Assembly (NCBI RefSeq): GCF_019967995.1
Contig: NZ_CP065377.1
Location: 1,612,001-1,676,000, forward strand
Direction: 5' to 3'
Source: Faecalibacterium prausnitzii
GTDB taxonomy: Bacteria; Bacillota; Clostridia; Oscillospirales; Ruminococcaceae
Length of the DNA stretch: 64,000 nt
This document shows positions 2,797 through 9,811 of the stretch, piece after piece (the first letter of the stretch is position 1; every line of letters begins with the position of its first letter). The position numbers and the translations under genes were made by a program. The notes beneath the pieces are model-generated. The model saw only the letters and a list, made by a program, of their open reading frames with translations. It made no database searches and was not told the origin of the DNA.

Positions 2797-3039
2797 TTAT
2801 GCAGCACCTCCCGGTGTGTTATCGACCTTCTGCGCATCGAGCCATTCCATCAGCCCTTCGCGGAAGATCCGGTAGCTATTGCCCACCTTTACCGCCGGGA
2901 AGCCCGGTTTACTCACCAGCCGATAGACAAAATTCTGCCCGAACTCCAGCAGCTCTGCCACCTCGGCAACGGTCATCATGGGCGAGAGCTGTGTCGCAGT
3001 CGTCGGCTTTCCAGTGGTGTTCTTTTTGCTTCGTGTCAT
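2797..3039 (-). CDS. Excisionase-type helix-turn-helix protein
   Basis: Eighty residues from the ATG preceded by AGGAG. Residues from about 20 to 70 read as a MerR/excisionase-type winged helix: a TVAEVAELLEFGQNFVYRLV segment, then a wing ending in KVGNSYRIFREGLMEWL. Such proteins bind DNA, either as recombination directionality factors at attachment sites or as small regulators. The same element encodes a tyrosine recombinase, which favours the excisionase reading. The stop is next to an in-frame ATG of the downstream gene, and both follow the promoter at 3160-3188. Confidence 0.75.
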   Translation of the reverse strand: MTRSKKNTTGKPTTATQLSPMMTVAEVAELLEFGQNFVYRLVSKPGFPAVKVGNSYRIFREGLMEWLDAQKVDNTPGGAA

Positions 3040-3080
3040 AATTTGTATGCTCCTATATAATTGGATTGTATTTTTGGCAG

Positions 3081-3128
3081 TCAACTGGGCGTTGCCAAAT
3101 TACGCCTTATTGTTTTTTCGCTACGCAC
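3081..3128 (-). CDS. Possible 15-residue leader peptide ahead of xis-like gene
   Basis: A GTG codon seven bases after a perfect AAGGAGG opens a 15-codon frame (MRSEKTIRRNLATPS) that ends about 40 bases before the excisionase-like start. It lies directly downstream of the predicted promoter at 3160-3188. It may be a translated leader that tunes expression of the operon, or a chance site; the ribosome-binding sequence is its only strong support. Confidence 0.3.
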   Translation of the reverse strand: MRSEKTIRRNLATPS

Positions 3129-3511: not shown

Positions 3512-3585
3512 CAACATCGCCAACATCGCCACACTGGCGAAGTTTATTTTTGTCGCTTATTCGTCATTTTTATGCAACTTCGCCA
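3512..3585. repeat. Repeats and palindrome at the 3' end of the RepA-like gene
   Basis: A 9-base tandem repeat CAACATCGC occupies 3512-3520 and 3521-3529. It runs into a palindrome TCGCCA-CAC-TGGCGA (3526-3540). A further 10-base arm, TGGCGAAGTT (3535-3544), is perfectly complementary to 3576-3585, inside the last codons of the ATPase gene. Repeats beside a replication-type ATPase could be an origin or an operator; this is inference. The rest of the 3129-3569 gap holds only the features listed separately. Confidence 0.45.
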
Positions 3586-4712
3586 CACACTCGCCTCACT
3601 GCCCGGACAGCGCACAAGGAGGTGATGAACTTGAACTTTCCGTCAGCCTGCCGCACCCGCTTGGTCTGGATCTTTTTCTCTTTTACAAGGCATGTATGTG
3701 CCCGCTCAACGGTGCGTCTGCTGCATCCTGTTTCGTCCATTACCAGCTTTTTCAGATCCATGCCAGCCATCGGTCCCTGCTCTTTCAGAAGGGCCATGAT
3801 GGACTCCTTGGCATCCCGCTGCGACGGCTCCAATGGCATCGGCTTGTCGGCCATCAACTCCTTATAATGCTTCTCCGTGGTCGCCGCCAGCACTGCCCGG
3901 ACGGTTTCCACCTCTGCGCCTGCCTTATTTTTCACACCTACCGTCTGGGTATGGAAGAGGATACTACGTGCCTTAGTGCCAATGTTCAGCTTTTCCTGCG
4001 TTACATAGGTGACGCTCTCGTCCATCGGCAGTCTCCCCAGAATGGTCACGCTGCGAGCGGCATTCCACAGCTCACCCGAACCGGCCAGCAACATCCGTGC
4101 ATCATCGCCTGCCTTCTTTACCATGTGAGATACAATGACCACGCTGAACTGGTCTGCCAAAGCTTTTTCCTGCAGCATATCAAGCGCCCCGCGCATCACA
4201 TCACCATTTGCCGCTGCATTCCACTCCAGAAAGCTCCTGAGCGGGTCGATGATAACCAGTGCCGGATGCAGCTCATCAATAAGCTCAAACAAGCTTGCCC
4301 CAATAACAAGCTTTTTCTTTTTCTGCTGCCAGTACCAGCCGGGAGTCGCGTAAAACACCCTGCGCATATCCGCCTCTGCCGCGATCATGCGCGGAGCCAG
4401 AGACATGCCGGGGTCATCCTCGCTCGTAAGTACTAAAACATTCCCCTGTGCAACTGCAGCATCAGGGAAGAGCATCGTGGGACGTCCGGTCGTTACGGCA
4501 GCCACCACACCCGCCATGAATACGCCCTTGCCCACGCCGCCGGGGCCTGCCACGACCGACACTGCTCCCATCGGGAAGTATCCTTTAACAAGCCATCGGG
4601 TATTTACCGGCTCCACATCTCCCAGACACGGAATCATGCCTCCATGGTAGACCGGCGCAGCTGAAGCAGTGGTCACAGCAGGGATTAACGGAAAGAAACT
4701 TAGAAAACTCAT
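3570..4712 (-). CDS. RepA-like RecA-fold ATPase (AAA_25 type)
   Basis: The 380-residue protein has a Walker A loop GPGGVGKG near residues 56-63, a Walker B strand ALVIIDPL near 151-158, and a C-terminal region (from about 320) that resembles a winged helix (SRRTVERAHTCLVKEKKI). This layout matches RepA-type hexameric helicases of plasmids and integrative elements (AAA_25 family), which unwind DNA for element replication. The ATG has AAGGAG seven bases upstream. Between it and the integrase gene lies a candidate structured RNA on the same strand. GC content is lower than in the chromosomal genes to the right. Confidence 0.75.
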   Translation of the reverse strand: MSFLSFFPLIPAVTTASAAPVYHGGMIPCLGDVEPVNTRWLVKGYFPMGAVSVVAGPGGVGKGVFMAGVVAAVTTGRPTMLFPDAAVAQGNVLVLTSEDDPGMSLAPRMIAAEADMRRVFYATPGWYWQQKKKKLVIGASLFELIDELHPALVIIDPLRSFLEWNAAANGDVMRGALDMLQEKALADQFSVVIVSHMVKKAGDDARMLLAGSGELWNAARSVTILGRLPMDESVTYVTQEKLNIGTKARSILFHTQTVGVKNKAGAEVETVRAVLAATTEKHYKELMADKPMPLEPSQRDAKESIMALLKEQGPMAGMDLKKLVMDETGCSRRTVERAHTCLVKEKKIQTKRVRQADGKFKFITSLCAVRAVRRVCGEVA

Positions 4713-4799
4713 ATTTTACTCCTTATATTCGTTTACGTTTTTGGCATATTTTTTACGCTACATCGTGCATCTTCTAAAAAATGGCAATAAAAAAGACGC

Positions 4800-5047
4800 A
4801 CAAAAAGATAGAACTCCCAAGCCGCACTCATACCGTATACCGGCAGAATACAGCTTCTGGGAAACTACTCTATCTAATCATGCGTCTCGCCTTAGGCTGA
4901 GACCTCCATTCGTCTAGGTGAGGCTCAGTATCCTGAACCTCGACGAACAGATAAAATATGTTACGCAGTCCATCACTGTGAGTCCGCGTAATGGCCCTCG
5001 GAGACATCATCTTCACTTCTGGGCTTCATACGAAACATTCCGGGGGT
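4800..5047 (-). ncRNA. Candidate structured non-coding RNA, about 245 nt
   Basis: No coding frame fits this region, but the minus strand carries a promoter (5054-5082) and a series of stems. These are TTACGC/GCGTAA (4961-4966 with 4986-4991); a nine-pair stem with a four-base loop (4920-4928 with 4933-4941), extended by CGTC/GACG at 4911-4914 and 4942-4945; GTCTC.GCC/GGC.GAGAC (4884-4903); and a small CCG/CGG hairpin (4833-4843). A closing stem near the 3' end (4807-4822 with 4853-4874) is followed by TTTTT, like an intrinsic terminator. I cannot match it to a known RNA family from memory. It could be a regulatory RNA of the element or a long leader of the downstream ATPase gene. Confidence 0.55.
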
Positions 5048-5053
5048 AAGGTC

Positions 5054-5082
5054 ATTATAGCACCGTCGGCAGTAATTGTCAC
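5054..5082 (-). promoter_or_regulatory. Promoter of the structured RNA
   Basis: GTGACA (5077-5082) and a consensus TATAAT (5054-5059) are separated by 17 bases on the minus strand, predicting a start near 5047. It is the best promoter in the element. Confidence 0.7.
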
Positions 5083-5144
5083 GCTCCATTTTATAAACAT
5101 TTCGTGATCTTCTCTTTCTGCACAATTGGTCCTCCTCACTTCAA

Positions 5145-5258
5145 CCTTGCAATGACCGCTCAACTTTGCATTTCCGAAATTATCAATTTATATCGCATTT
5201 TCGTTCAATTTCATCAACATTGCAAAGTCGCAAATTCATATACACGATCACTGCAAAG
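5145..5258. repeat. Repeated TTGCA/TGCAA motifs beyond the integrase stop
   Basis: Four copies of a TTGCA-type word lie here: 5146-5152, 5163-5170 (ACTTTGCA), 5221-5228 (TGCAAAGT, the exact complement of the previous one) and 5251-5258. Similar short repeats near integrase genes can be arm-type binding sites of tyrosine recombinases. The motif is short, so chance cannot be excluded. Confidence 0.25.
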
Positions 5259-5274
5259 AAGCCGCCACACTCCT

Positions 5275-6237
5275 TCACCTTTCCCGTTTCATCCCTATTT
5301 TTTCACCCCGTTGCTTTTCATGGCTCATCTGTTCCAGCGGGTTCAGGGCGTCATAGTTGGCTCTCAGGTCGTCCGCATACAGTGCCACATACCGCCGGGT
5401 CATGGTGAGGTCTGCGTGTCCCAGCAGCTTTTGCAGACGGAACGGGTCGCCACCAGCTTGGATATACAGTTTGGCGTAGGTGTGCCGGAACAGGTGCATA
5501 GAGGTCTTATCCACGCCTCTGCTATGATTATAATTCCAAATCGCATTACCGAGCGAATTCAGGGTCATCTGGTTGCCATACTCTGAGACAAACAACGGGG
5601 CCGTGAAATCGCTGGTACGATGCTCCAGATACTCCTCCATGATCTTGACCAGTGCCTTAGAGAGCGGCACGATTTGCTGGTTACGCGCCTTCATGTGGCG
5701 GAAAAACACTGTCCCGGCGGAAAGGTCCAAGTCTCCGATCTGCAGGTTGAGTAGCGTGGACGCACGGCAGCCGGTACCAAGCAGGAAGTTGACAATGACC
5801 CAATTGCGGTATTCGGCAAAGGAGCACGTCTTGCAGTCCGGTTCCTTCAGCAGCTTCTGCAGCTCATCGGTGGTGTAGGGTTCTTTGATTGGATCATCTG
5901 CACGCACTAGTCTGATCGGATACTTTTCCAGATAGCTTTTTTCCATACACCAGTACAAAAACGCACGCACCATGCGCAGATTCGTATTGATGGTCGTATC
6001 GTGAAGCTTCTGGTCCTTCATATAGAAGATATAGTCCTCCACCGTTTCCTCTGTGATGGTATGGATGGGCTGTTCTGTGTCCCCCAGAAACCGAAAGAAG
6101 CTTCTGCCCTTAGCGGCGTAGAAGTCGAGTGAGCCTTGGGAGAGGTTCTTGAGCCGGTTGTACTTTTGGAACCTTTCAAATGCCTGTTGGATGGTGGGAT
6201 TTGCCTTGGCAGCGGGTCTTAAATCACGGTTACGCAC
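5275..6237 (-). CDS. Tyrosine recombinase (phage-type integrase)
   Basis: A 320-residue site-specific recombinase with an N-terminal SAM-like core-binding domain (about residues 15-105) and a C-terminal catalytic domain. The catalytic set is complete: Arg158 (GCRAS), Lys183 (MKARN), His248 and Arg251 (HLFRH), His274 (LLGHA) and Tyr283 (RRYVA). I chose the GTG start ten bases after AAAGGAGG. The longer frame to 6336 would begin inside the tRNA terminator hairpin. The gene points away from the adjacent tRNA-Leu, as in elements that integrate at a tRNA 3' end. Confidence 0.9.
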   Translation of the reverse strand: MRNRDLRPAAKANPTIQQAFERFQKYNRLKNLSQGSLDFYAAKGRSFFRFLGDTEQPIHTITEETVEDYIFYMKDQKLHDTTINTNLRMVRAFLYWCMEKSYLEKYPIRLVRADDPIKEPYTTDELQKLLKEPDCKTCSFAEYRNWVIVNFLLGTGCRASTLLNLQIGDLDLSAGTVFFRHMKARNQQIVPLSKALVKIMEEYLEHRTSDFTAPLFVSEYGNQMTLNSLGNAIWNYNHSRGVDKTSMHLFRHTYAKLYIQAGGDPFRLQKLLGHADLTMTRRYVALYADDLRANYDALNPLEQMSHEKQRGEKIGMKRER

Positions 6238-6304
6238 GAGAGAGACTCCTCCTTTTTTCGCGAAAAATCCCTCTCGCCCGCTCAACACTTCCAGAAAATG
6301 GAAC

Positions 6305-6357
6305 AAAAAGAGAAAGCCCAGAATCATTCGATTCAACGAATAATTCTGAGCTTTCTC
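6305..6357 (-). terminator. Terminator of tRNA-Leu(UAA) at the element boundary
   Basis: A 20-base-pair stem with two G-U pairs (6311-6330 with 6337-6356) and a six-base loop is followed by TTTTT on the minus strand. It starts two bases beyond the tRNA 3' end, so the element boundary keeps the tRNA unit terminated and isolates the integrase gene from read-through. Confidence 0.8.
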
Positions 6358-6358
6358 A

Positions 6359-6442
6359 TGCCACCGGCGGGGCTTGAACCCGCACTCTGTCGCCAGAAAG
6401 GGATTTTAAGTCCCTCGTGTCTGCCAATTTCACCACAGTGGC
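6359..6442 (-). tRNA. tRNA-Leu (anticodon UAA)
   Basis: An 84-base cloverleaf with a seven-pair acceptor stem (GCCACTG with CGGTGGC, one G-U pair), a long variable arm, GCGGG TTCAAGC CCCGC as T arm, and anticodon loop CTTAAAA giving anticodon UAA. CCA is not encoded. It lies 74 bases downstream of pncB and is the probable attachment site of the element to its left. Confidence 0.93.
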
Positions 6443-6516
6443 TTCTAAATGAACTGCCGCTGCAAGAACTGCAAACGGCAATTCATATCATACAATAGAA
6501 ATCCCGATTTGTCAAG

Positions 6517-8034
6517 TTATACCTTGCCGCCATGCAGCTCGGCATACATGCGGGAGCGGCACTCGGCGACGGCGGGGGTCATGTTGACATAGTGCTTGTG
6601 GGGGCACTCCAGGCGCAGCTCGCTCTCCCAGGTCTCATCGGTCAGCTGGCGGGCGATGTAGGCCTTTTTCTCTGCGATGGAGGGCAGCTCCATGGCCAGC
6701 TCGCCGTGGAGGATGTGCGGCACCAACAGCTTTTTCACCTTGGTGGGGGTGATGGTCACGGTGCGCTCAATGGCGTCAGAATCCAGATTGACCATCGTGA
6801 CAGGCTTGCCTGCCTCGATCTCCTCGCCGTCCATGGCGATCAGGTCGCACTGTGCCTGGCCGTTTTCATCGTAGAGACGCCACGGCATCTTTTTGCCAGG
6901 GATGATGGCCTTGCTGGCAGAATCCGAACACTTCATCTTGGGCTGATAGGTTCCATCCGAGCGCTTGACGGCCACCAGTTTGTACACGCCGCCAAAGACG
7001 GGATCGGAAGCCGAGGTGATGAGGTTCTCGCCGACACCGTAGGAATCGAAATGGGCATGCTCATACAGCTCCATGTTGGCGATCTTCTTTTCGTCCAGAC
7101 CGTTGGACGCCACCAGCTTGATATAAGGCTTCCCTGCTGCGTCCAGCGCCTTGCGCAGGCGCTTGGAGCCGCGGGCCAGGTCACCGGAGTCGATGCGGGC
7201 ACTCTTGACGCGGCGGCTGGGGTCGTTGGGATACTTTTCGATGAGGTAGTCGTCCAGCTTGATGAGGTTGGGCAGACCGCTCTCCATGATATTATAGGTA
7301 TCCAGCAGGAGGCTGACAGAGTCCGGATAGGTATCGGCAAAGGCCTTGAAAGCATCGAACTCGGTCGGGAAGAACTCGATGAAACTGTGGGCCACCGTGC
7401 CGACGGCCTTGACCTCCGGGCCATACTTCATCTCGGCCAGGCAGTTGGCGGTGCCGATGCAGCCGCCCAGAACGGCTGCATACGCGCCGTCGTTGCCTGC
7501 GCTCTCGCCCTGGGCGCGGCGGGTGCCGAACTCCATGACGCTGCGGGGGGTGTGGGTGTTCAGACCGGTGACGCGGGTCGCCTTGGTGGCGATCAGGCTG
7601 TGGAAGTTCATGGTCTGCAGCAGATAGGTCTCGATGAGGATAGCGCCCACAAGGTCGCACTCGATGCGGACCATCTGCACATGGGGATAGCAGACCGTGC
7701 CTTCGGGCAGGGCGTACATGTCGCCCTGCCAGCGGTAGGTGCGCAGATACTCGCAGAACTCCTCGCTCATGCCCTTGGTGCGCAGCCAGCAGATATCCTG
7801 CTCGTTGAAGTGATAGTTCAGCAAAAAGCGGGTCAGCTTGCGCTGGCCTGCGCTGATGGAATAGCCCTGGTTGTCGGGGTTCTTGCGGAAGAACATATCG
7901 AATACCAGCGTCGTATCCTTGAAGCCGTGCAGAAACAGGCAGTTGGCCATCGTGAACTCGTAGAAATCCACGACCATGGCAGGGTTATCGTAATCTTCAT
8001 CCGGAATATACGGAACAACTTTGATCTCGTCCAT
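6517..8034 (-). CDS. pncB: Nicotinate phosphoribosyltransferase
   Basis: The 505-residue protein joins nicotinate and PRPP, with ATP hydrolysis, to make nicotinate mononucleotide in NAD salvage. Family signatures include the N-terminal YEFTMANCLFLHGF segment, an EFGTRRAQG motif near residue 170, and an ARIDSGDLARGSKRLRKALD segment near 265-285. Length fits the family. The ATG follows GAGAGGAAA. The gene stands alone between guaB and tRNA-Leu, with its own promoter and a structured leader at 8052-8193. Confidence 0.93.
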   Translation of the reverse strand: MDEIKVVPYIPDEDYDNPAMVVDFYEFTMANCLFLHGFKDTTLVFDMFFRKNPDNQGYSISAGQRKLTRFLLNYHFNEQDICWLRTKGMSEEFCEYLRTYRWQGDMYALPEGTVCYPHVQMVRIECDLVGAILIETYLLQTMNFHSLIATKATRVTGLNTHTPRSVMEFGTRRAQGESAGNDGAYAAVLGGCIGTANCLAEMKYGPEVKAVGTVAHSFIEFFPTEFDAFKAFADTYPDSVSLLLDTYNIMESGLPNLIKLDDYLIEKYPNDPSRRVKSARIDSGDLARGSKRLRKALDAAGKPYIKLVASNGLDEKKIANMELYEHAHFDSYGVGENLITSASDPVFGGVYKLVAVKRSDGTYQPKMKCSDSASKAIIPGKKMPWRLYDENGQAQCDLIAMDGEEIEAGKPVTMVNLDSDAIERTVTITPTKVKKLLVPHILHGELAMELPSIAEKKAYIARQLTDETWESELRLECPHKHYVNMTPAVAECRSRMYAELHGGKV

Positions 8035-8051
8035 GAAAGTTTCCTCTCTTC

Positions 8052-8193
8052 ATATCCATACAGCGGCCGATACCGGGCGGCTGCTGAAAAAACGCCCCGG
8101 CCCGGTCTGCATCTCAGGTGCGGCGCGGGGCTCTTCCACCCTGTCATGACAGGGTGTTTGTATCATGATAGCATCTTTCCCGGATGGGTGCAA
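8052..8193 (-). promoter_or_regulatory. pncB promoter, palindrome and attenuator-like leader
   Basis: On the minus strand TTGCAC (8188-8193) and TATCAT (8165-8170) are 17 bases apart. Just past the predicted start lies a perfect 20-base palindrome, CACCCTGTCATGACAGGGTG (8137-8156). Next comes a GCCCCG/CGGGGC stem (8126-8131 with 8094-8099) followed by six T's (8087-8092), which resembles an intrinsic terminator about 55 bases before the start codon. The palindrome could be an operator for a niacin-responsive repressor such as NiaR, or part of an RNA switch. Neither is proven. Confidence 0.55.
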
Positions 8194-8243
8194 GAGGTTT
8201 TGTAAAATTCCGGCGGATGCAGACAAAATCTTTTTTCCAAACC

Positions 8244-8282
8244 AGAAAAACGGCTGCCTCCAGAAGCCAGGAAGCAGCCGTT
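8244..8282 (-). terminator. guaB terminator
   Basis: AACGGCTGC pairs with GCAGCCGTT across about 17 bases and is followed by a T run on the minus strand. It lies 15 bases past the guaB stop. Confidence 0.85.
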
Positions 8283-8296
8283 CGATTCAATTGTGA

Positions 8297-9811
8297 TCAG
8301 CCATTCATGATGTTGGGGGTCGCGTTCTTCAGCATGACGTCATGGCTGCCGCCCTCCACGATGGAAGTGGAGGAAACGACCGTCAGCTTGGCCTTCTGCT
8401 GCAGCTCCGGGATGGAGAGCGCACCGCAGTTGCACATGGTGCTCTTGACCTTGTACAGCGTGGTCTGGACGCCATCGGACAGGGGGCCTGCATACGGGAC
8501 ATAGCTGTCCACGCCTTCCTCAAAGCTCAGCTTGGTGGAGCCGCCGAGGTCATAGCGCTGCCAGTTGCGGGCACGGTTGGAGCCTTCGCCCCAGTACTCC
8601 TTCATATACTGGCCATTGATGCGGACCTTGTTCGTGGGGCTCTCGTCAAAGCGGGCAAAGTAGCGGCCCAGCATGACGAAGTCTGCGCCCATGGCCAGCG
8701 CCAGGGTGATGTGGTAATCGTGGACGATGCCGCCATCGGAGCAGATGGGCACATAGATGCCGGTCTCTTTATAATACTCATCGCGGGCCTTGGCGACCTC
8801 GATGACAGCGGTAGCCTGGCCGCGGCCAATGCCCTTGGTCTCGCGGGTGATGCAGATGGAACCGCCGCCGATGCCGATCTTCACGAAGTCGGCGCCTGCC
8901 TCTGCCAGGAAGCGGAAGCCTTCTGCATCGACCACATTGCCTGCGCCGACCTTGACGGTGTCGCCGTAGTGCTCACGGATCCAGCCGATGGTGCGGCTCT
9001 GCCACTCGGAATAGCCCTCGGAAGAGTCGATGCAGAGGACATCCACACCGGCCTCCACCAGAGCGGGAACACGCTCGGCGTAGTCACGGGTGTTGATGCC
9101 GGCACCCACGACATAGCTCTTGTTGGCGTCCAGCAGCTCGTTGGCGTTCTTCTTGTGGGAGTCGTAGTCCTTGCGGAAGACGAAATACTTCAGGTTGCCC
9201 TCGGCGTCCACCAGAGGCAGCGTGTTGATCTTGTTGTCCCAGATGATGTTGTTGCAGTCATGCAGGGAGGTGTTTTCCGGGGCCGTGACCAGCTTTTCGA
9301 TGGGGGTCATGAAGGTGGTGACAGAGGCGTCATCGGGGGTGTGGTTGACGCGGTAATCGCGGGAGGCCACGATGCCCAGCAGCTTGCCGTTGGGGGTGCC
9401 GTCGGCGGTGACAGCAATGGTGGAGTGGCCGGTGCGGGCCTTCAGCTCCAGCACATCGTGCAGGGTGGCCGTCGGGGCCAGATTGGAGTCGGAGACGACA
9501 TAACCGGCCTTATAGCTCTTGACGCGGCGGACCATCGCTGCCTCGTTCTCAATGCTCTGAGAGCCATAGATAAAGGAAACGCCGCCCTCGCGTGCCAGCG
9601 CGATCGCCAGCTTGTCGCCGGAGACTGCCTGCATGATGGCACTGATCATGGGGATGTTCATTTCCAGCGGGCATTCTTCCTCGCCCTTGCGGTACTTGAC
9701 CAGCGGGGTCTTCAGGCTGACCGCCGTGGGGACATTCTCCGAAGAAGAATAGCCGGGGATCAGCAAGTACTCACCAAAGGTGCGGGAAGGTTCTTCATAG
9801 AAATATGCCAT
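8297..9811 (-). CDS. guaB: IMP dehydrogenase
   Basis: A 504-residue NAD-dependent enzyme converting IMP to XMP, the first step to GMP. The catalytic loop is visible as [12 protein letters not shown] (near residues 325-336), its Cys forming the thioimidate with the substrate. A tandem CBS region lies between the two halves of the barrel (about 105-225). The chosen ATG (MAYFYEEPS) has AAAGGAG upstream; the frame extends 17 codons further without a ribosome site. It is a single-gene unit with its own promoter and terminator. Confidence 0.93.

Follow-up and report, generated by a model that had tools for sequence, protein, structure and literature searches.

What is encoded between the integrase and the replication-type ATPase of an integrative element in Faecalibacterium prausnitzii? 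The 64-kb stretch of genomic DNA that we analysed (hereafter the window) contains, between these two genes, a segment without a recognised gene, which an earlier inspection of the sequence had proposed to be a conserved structured RNA of about 245 nt. We asked whether this segment is transcribed as a discrete RNA, whether it has relatives, and what it might do for the element that carries it.

Genomic context of the RNA candidate

The RNA candidate is carried by an integrative element that adjoins a tRNA-Leu(taa) gene. All of the genes of this island listed below, like the candidate itself, are on the minus strand.

6310..6426, strand not given: right copy of a 117-bp repeat of the tRNA-Leu 3' region
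5275..6240, minus: tyrosine integrase (PF00589, E 3e-30), as the stretch used for queries; its open frame starts at 6336
5141-5152, 5160-5171 and 5214-5225: three 12-bp iteron-like repeats of the type TCAACnTTGCAa, between the integrase and the RNA candidate
3570..4712, minus: RepA-like AAA_25 ATPase of 380 aa (PF13481, E 3.4e-26)
2797-3084, minus: helix-turn-helix protein
436-2235, minus: helicase

The left copy of the 117-bp repeat lies 33 kb away (genome positions 1585387-1585503, 95.7% identity), and the whole 33 kb between the copies is putatively one element. Between the two repeats, 33 kb left of the integrase (loci L172 and L173), there are polysaccharide-type genes, judged by eye to be glycosyltransferase-like, LicD-like and flippase-like, and an additional integrase fragment at L172 15229-15519. 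The ATPase gene is flanked on both sides by iteron-like repeats whose words differ (TCAACnTTGCAa at 5141-5225 and CAACnTCGCCAnnc at 3512-3588); repeats were also seen by eye beside the end of the ATPase gene in two weaker relatives, L124 and L129.

Close relatives of the ATPase (90-99% identity) are present in metagenomes, and its cluster at 90% identity holds 433 member sequences from 81 contigs in public sequence. Among 150 related genomes 38 contained a match, the next best after the ATPase itself being longer frames with 34-37% identity. Searches with the ATPase against plasmids and with the integrase against phages returned 7 and 594 records, respectively, each below 60% identity, and neither protein used alone as a probe found anything in viral contigs. 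The nearest integrase from a named strain, that of F. prausnitzii ATCC 27768 (L005), is 96% identical in its best segment, and in both genomes an IMPDH RNA lies within a few kb of tRNA-Leu. Directly behind that integrase there is a 612-codon frame, named helicase-like by eye, and neither the frame listing nor a covariance-model search revealed such an RNA there. The same tRNA site thus appears to carry a different element in ATCC 27768.

A predicted transcript between a promoter and a terminator-like hairpin

The features of the predicted transcript are as follows, in the order of transcription.

5054..5082, minus: near-consensus promoter GTGACA-17-TATAAT with an extended -10 element (TGC before TATAAT)
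4789..5047, minus: predicted transcript of ~259 nt, its start placed 7 nt past the -10 element and its end at the U-run
4995..5046, minus: stem P1, weak, with a large loop (z -1.08)
4961..4991, minus: stem P2 of 8 pairs (z -2.57)
4951..4960, minus: unpaired linker CATATTTTAT that joins P2 to P3 and is complementary to the start region of the ATPase
4906..4950, minus: hairpin P3 of 9+9 pairs with a 5-nt bulge and a GATA loop (z -5.33)
4884..4903, minus: small alternative hairpin GUCUC-A-GCC-UAA-GGC-GAGAC (-10.6 kcal/mol), which excludes the base of P4
4793..4888, minus: long terminator-like hairpin P4 of 96 nt and 40 pairs (-53.5 kcal/mol, z -9.83)
4789..4794, minus: U-run following P4

The minus-strand promoter named in the original prediction is present and is well above chance. 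Matches to at least 11 of 12 consensus positions with spacers of 16-18 occur at two sites on both strands of the window, the other being at 6515 on the minus strand, just upstream of tRNA-Leu, while the mean over 40 shuffled sequences was 0.125 (0.075 when TGn was included).

The predicted fold is considerably more stable than expected from composition. A 275-nt piece folds at -111.6 kcal/mol (z -6.49), an energy that none of 200 shuffles equalled, against z -2.20 for the other strand; the predicted transcript (260 nt, 300 shuffles) gives z -6.36, against -2.20. Thirteen of the 73 pairs in the model fold are G-U and would become A-C on the other strand, so the fold suits an RNA of the minus strand. 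The excess stability is concentrated in P3 and above all in P4. The dense structure that had been described across the whole stretch therefore holds for the fold in total (z about -6.4 against shuffles) and for these two hairpins, while P1 and P2 are near chance; a stem that uses 5053-5049 takes bases upstream of the inferred start at 5047. The 9-pair stem with a 4-base loop was reproduced exactly (4941-4933 with 4928-4920, loop GATA), and the closing stem said to run into a T run corresponds to P4, which enters the U-run at 4794-4789, just past the end of the stretch first marked out. A simple terminator scan called nothing at P4, presumably because its rules permit no long loops and count a stem only while it is uninterrupted.

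Stretches with strong local structure are not rare in this 64 kb. Among 492 windows on a fixed grid (30 shuffles each), 13 fell below z -4 and 8 below -5; the grid window that contains part of the RNA (4681-4940) scored -5.41, and five scored lower, two of these being the two strands at the tRNA. Two other structured stretches were seen. The stretch 1-260, downstream of the helicase gene in the same island, contains a long hairpin (z -6.14 minus, -4.14 plus). The stretch 8035-8330, upstream of a gene that by eye is nicotinate phosphoribosyltransferase-like, carries on the minus strand an inverted repeat ACACCCTGTCATGACAGGGTG and, ahead of the start codon, a G+C-rich hairpin with TTTTTT at its end. 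This arrangement resembles an attenuator, or else the hairpin may terminate the gene upstream; the grid window at 8061 scored z -5.50, and there was no Rfam match.

A discrete transcript with its own promoter and a terminator-like end is well supported by what can be read from the sequence alone, and on the promoter, the fold and the terminator we consider it likely that such a transcript is made.

Searches for relatives of the RNA

The original prediction had matched the RNA to no known family, and this agrees with our search of Rfam (4227 models), in which no model reached its gathering score in the stretch. The best model below threshold was Phe_leader (E 0.24, 22.9 bits against a cut-off of 55), and no known riboswitch, T-box or attenuator leader family was identified there by Rfam. 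The raiA (ModT) and 6S models, which we take to be among those searched, matched neither at the gathering score nor at E up to 5.

We then compared the sequence of the RNA with other genomes, which were sampled one per species in partly overlapping sets. Using blastn, we obtained no match in plasmids and phages. In 297 genomes of the family there were matches of 24-36 nt in three genomes besides its own, two of them inside long open frames and the third at a hairpin that has a T-run. In 31 genomes of the genus, at E up to 1, there were 31 matches in 18 other genomes; they were 16-29 nt long, and 17 lay around the U-run. These short matches look like chance. Of two exact patterns sought in viral contigs, one matched once, in surroundings that by eye are unlike the RNA, and the other found no match. 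There are no further copies in its own genome, and the RNA is therefore not a dispersed repeat.

A covariance model, R1, was built on this single sequence and is consequently not sensitive. At E up to 1 it recovered the RNA's own copy alone among the 31 genus genomes; among 394 genomes of the order it found one other (13 bits), and among 391 of the class six others, with 15.5-19.9 bits against 352.7 for itself. The five best of these six alignments were partial or patchy, the best being in the P1 region, and five of the six loci (L193 not among them) overlap frames of at least 90 codons, L192 partly. The two larger searches used stricter filters. In the window and in 90 of 117 loci of related integrases (the best 80 of 165 genome loci plus 37 viral loci), R1 found, besides the RNA, only the strand opposite to it (13.3 bits) and a single match of 7.6 bits. 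The description of the RNA as conserved is thus unsupported, since neither blastn nor R1 gave a convincing relative, and homologs did not come to light beside similar integrases, that of ATCC 27768 included. The absence of relatives is as strong as the search itself, with an insensitive single-sequence model, one genome per species and the stricter filters.

Complementarity between the linker and the ATPase start codon

The predicted transcript has four unpaired stretches of at least 7 nt, and the linker CATATTTTAT (4960-4951) is the one stretch of at least 9 nt. Its complement lies at the start of the next gene.

4710..4719, minus: proposed target GTAAAATATG at the ATPase start (ATG at 4712-4710), mostly within a predicted 12-nt hairpin loop

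Linker and target form ten pairs, nine Watson-Crick and one G-U, which span the ATG and the greater part of the spacer that separates it from the ribosome-binding site. Both partners are predicted to be accessible: the probability of being unpaired is 0.97-0.99 at nine of ten linker positions and 0.82-0.98 at nine of ten target positions. The predicted RNA hence has what start-codon-pairing small RNAs use, namely an accessible seed complementary to a start region.

The complementarity stands out from its surroundings. Compared with the other starts among six neighbouring genes, the ATPase start has z -4.15 against -1.71 for the next (simple shuffles), and it ranks first of 99 gene starts in 124 kb (mechanically chosen frames of at least 100 aa) at -7.8 kcal/mol, the second, at -7.2, being in the same island. 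When the ATPase start region was shuffled 2000 times with its dinucleotides preserved, one shuffle reached the same energy. The pattern RTAAAATATG occurs at 11 sites in the 2.94-Mb genome, one of which is the linker's own complement, and the reversed pattern at 8. The start-like word AAAATATG was found at two other sites together with the ribosome-binding site of a long frame (L208, L212), and at two more sites it opens long frames without an obvious ribosome-binding site (L210, L217). If 3-5 of some 2,900 genes (an estimated gene number) carry the word, the linker would match by chance about 1 in 600-1000 times per gene, or 1 in 100-160 times over the six neighbours. A pattern with a fixed ribosome-binding-site spacing was also tried; it found one site, which is not the ATPase, and was set aside.

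The complementarity to the ATPase start codon, which the original prediction does not mention, makes a regulatory role of the RNA plausible. In the reading that we tentatively prefer, the strong promoter would produce a stand-alone structured small RNA that terminates at its hairpin P4; the one accessible linker of this RNA, which separates P2 from P3, would pair with the start-codon loop of the ATPase mRNA (same strand, 231 nt further downstream); and this pairing would restrain ATPase translation and so hold down replication or excision of the element. The promoter, the fold, the complementarity and the predicted accessibility are observed features of the sequence, from which we infer transcription, the ends of the RNA, binding, the sign of regulation and its purpose. 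Control of replication or excision would be the natural purpose, given the iteron-like repeats and the Rep-type ATPase. Several observations weigh against this possibility. The duplex is A/U-rich and weak (-7.8 kcal/mol), and it does not appear when the RNA is freely co-folded with the ATPase 5' region. The second-best of the 99 gene starts comes close in energy, the target contains a start-like word that recurs at other starts, and a 10-mer of P4, although buried in the stem, has a slightly better score at the ATPase start (-8.0). The RNA also lacks the usual arrangement of copy-control RNAs, which are encoded opposite their target. As no homologues were found, the conservation of neither partner supports the pairing.

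A possible leader of the ATPase gene

The same arrangement could be read as a cis-acting leader or attenuator of the ATPase. Transcripts from the promoter at 5082 or from further upstream would mostly stop at P4, and in some condition P4 would remain unformed, through the alternative hairpin at 4903-4884 or through ribosomes on a 50-codon frame (described below), so that transcription continues into the ATPase gene; in addition, the linker may cover the start codon in cis. The RNA and the ATPase are on one strand with 76 nt from the U-run to the ATG, the minus strand in between contains no promoter-like site with at least 9 of 12 matches, the alternative hairpin excludes the base of P4, and the short frame, which has a strong ribosome-binding site, enters P1 and P2. 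The pairing of the linker with the start codon in cis has P ~0.77 in one of four folded pieces, but just 0.01, 0.11 and 0.05 in the others, which are longer and reach 4640. Moreover, P4 is far more stable than the alternative hairpin (-53.5 against -10.6 kcal/mol), and Rfam gave no match at threshold.

Stretches behind related integrases bear on this alternative as well as on our preferred reading. In 84 loci (700 nt each where present; 73 loci with 800 nt or more) there were seven promoters with at least 11 of 12 matches, so that finding a good one in this position is not unusual; such a promoter may simply drive the gene that follows, which counts against a stand-alone RNA. In the 240 nt after these seven promoters the fold had z -4.70 (L028), -3.09 (L024) and, for the other five, -1.83 to -0.72; none of the 84 loci combined such a promoter with a fold as strong as that of the RNA. 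In L028, from an Oscillospiraceae MAG (6983-7183), the promoter TTGACA-18-TATTAT just behind the integrase is followed by the structured stretch, which runs directly into a 247-codon frame, with a frame that by eye is ParA-like next. L028 is a positional analogue and looks like a leader. Together with the frequency of promoters behind integrases, it gave the explanation by a leader slightly more weight relative to the small RNA; we regard a leader as possible, if doubtful.

Ordinary intergenic sequence as a possible alternative

It is also conceivable that P4 terminates the upstream integrase transcript, that P3 and the promoter happen to lie nearby, and that the RNA has no specific function. 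P4 does hold most of the excess stability, and two other terminator-like stretches in the window have z -5.60 and -5.28. Behind related integrases, structured stretches are not rare either: 21 of 307 windows of 220 nt (the 79 long enough among 84 loci, 25 shuffles each) fell below z -4 and 12 below -5. Ten such stretches behind other integrases were read by eye, none being shown to resemble the RNA, and in 12 of the integrase loci the Rfam matches were limited to tRNAs, group II intron pieces and IMPDH RNA. Against chance association, P3 alone reaches z -5.33, and the promoter exceeds the shuffled expectation by far. We consider this explanation unlikely.

Coding potential of the stretch

The statement in the original prediction that no open frame fits was too strong, because two frames overlap the RNA.

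4973..5125, minus: open frame of 50 codons with a TTG start, 5 nt behind AGGAGG; overlaps the promoter, P1 and P2; coding doubtful
5016-4870, minus: frame of 48 codons with a GTG start, inside the RNA

The stretch might accordingly be a gene for a small protein of 50 codons with a CxxC motif, followed by a structured 3' untranslated end. The good ribosome-binding site ahead of the TTG and the fact that the frame is open throughout the promoter and P1 agree with this, but database searches do not. For this frame Pfam and NCBIfam gave no match and PHROG a single weak one (phrog_4921, E 0.031), which was rejected as a lead: 20 of 31 genus genomes match this family and the window genome does not. 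Among 5.8 billion proteins, in a search restricted to shared exact five-letter words and similar length, the sole match was a protein of 42 aa that covers half of the frame (three members, one contig). Read from the protein alone, it looks like a one-base insertion that joins the end of the 50-codon frame to the start of another frame, which weakens the coding reading unless it reflects an assembly error. In 148 genomes there were 12 weak matches besides its own, six of them with stops. A small protein gene is thus quite improbable.

Least probable of all, and very unlikely, is a structure at the level of DNA that would act in single-stranded form as part of an origin of replication or transfer: iteron-like repeats and the Rep-type ATPase gene adjoin, and folding with DNA parameters still gives a structure for the minus strand (-41.6, the plus strand having -34.2), but the stability of the RNA is strand-specific, with its 13 G-U pairs, and the structure is framed by a near-consensus promoter and a U-run.

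Comparison with known systems and implications

RNAs encoded by mobile elements and acting on rep-type genes are a known kind of system. The copy-control antisense RNAs (ctRNAs) of plasmids act on rep mRNAs and are usually encoded opposite their target. Like ctRNAs, the candidate is a small structured RNA with a strong promoter in a replication region, and here it has a predicted pairing with a rep-type start. Unlike them, it is located upstream on the strand of its own target and has a match of just 10 nt; it is not a cis-encoded antisense RNA, one that lies on the opposite strand and overlaps its target. An RNA of this sort acting on a rep-type gene would belong to that known kind, and its sequence is absent from Rfam; the RNA is ordinary in kind and, as far as searched, undescribed in sequence.

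Two further RNAs invite comparison. The sgm-sRNA of Salmonella Genomic Island 1 is reported to be needed for transfer and to derive from a longer primary RNA made between mpsA and oriT, of which it is the 3' end (PMC9299015). Our candidate is similar in being a small RNA within an integrative element beside mobility genes; the described origin and the described role in transfer set sgm-sRNA apart from it. The raiA motif, or ModT RNA, is likewise a structured noncoding RNA of Bacillota; it is reported to be conserved in more than 2,500 species (PMC11706538), whereas the RNA described here has no Rfam match and no relatives found in our searches.

Among the open-licence papers listed in our literature searches, none dealt with this RNA. 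That it is an undescribed integrative-element RNA, arranged in tandem with its target behind a near-consensus promoter and masking the ATPase start codon by a contact between loop and linker, is as a whole rather unlikely. To our knowledge, the restraint of replication and excision in the integrative elements of gut bacteria has been little studied. If our preferred reading is true, a specific RNA and a specific target sequence would now be named for the control of an integrative element.
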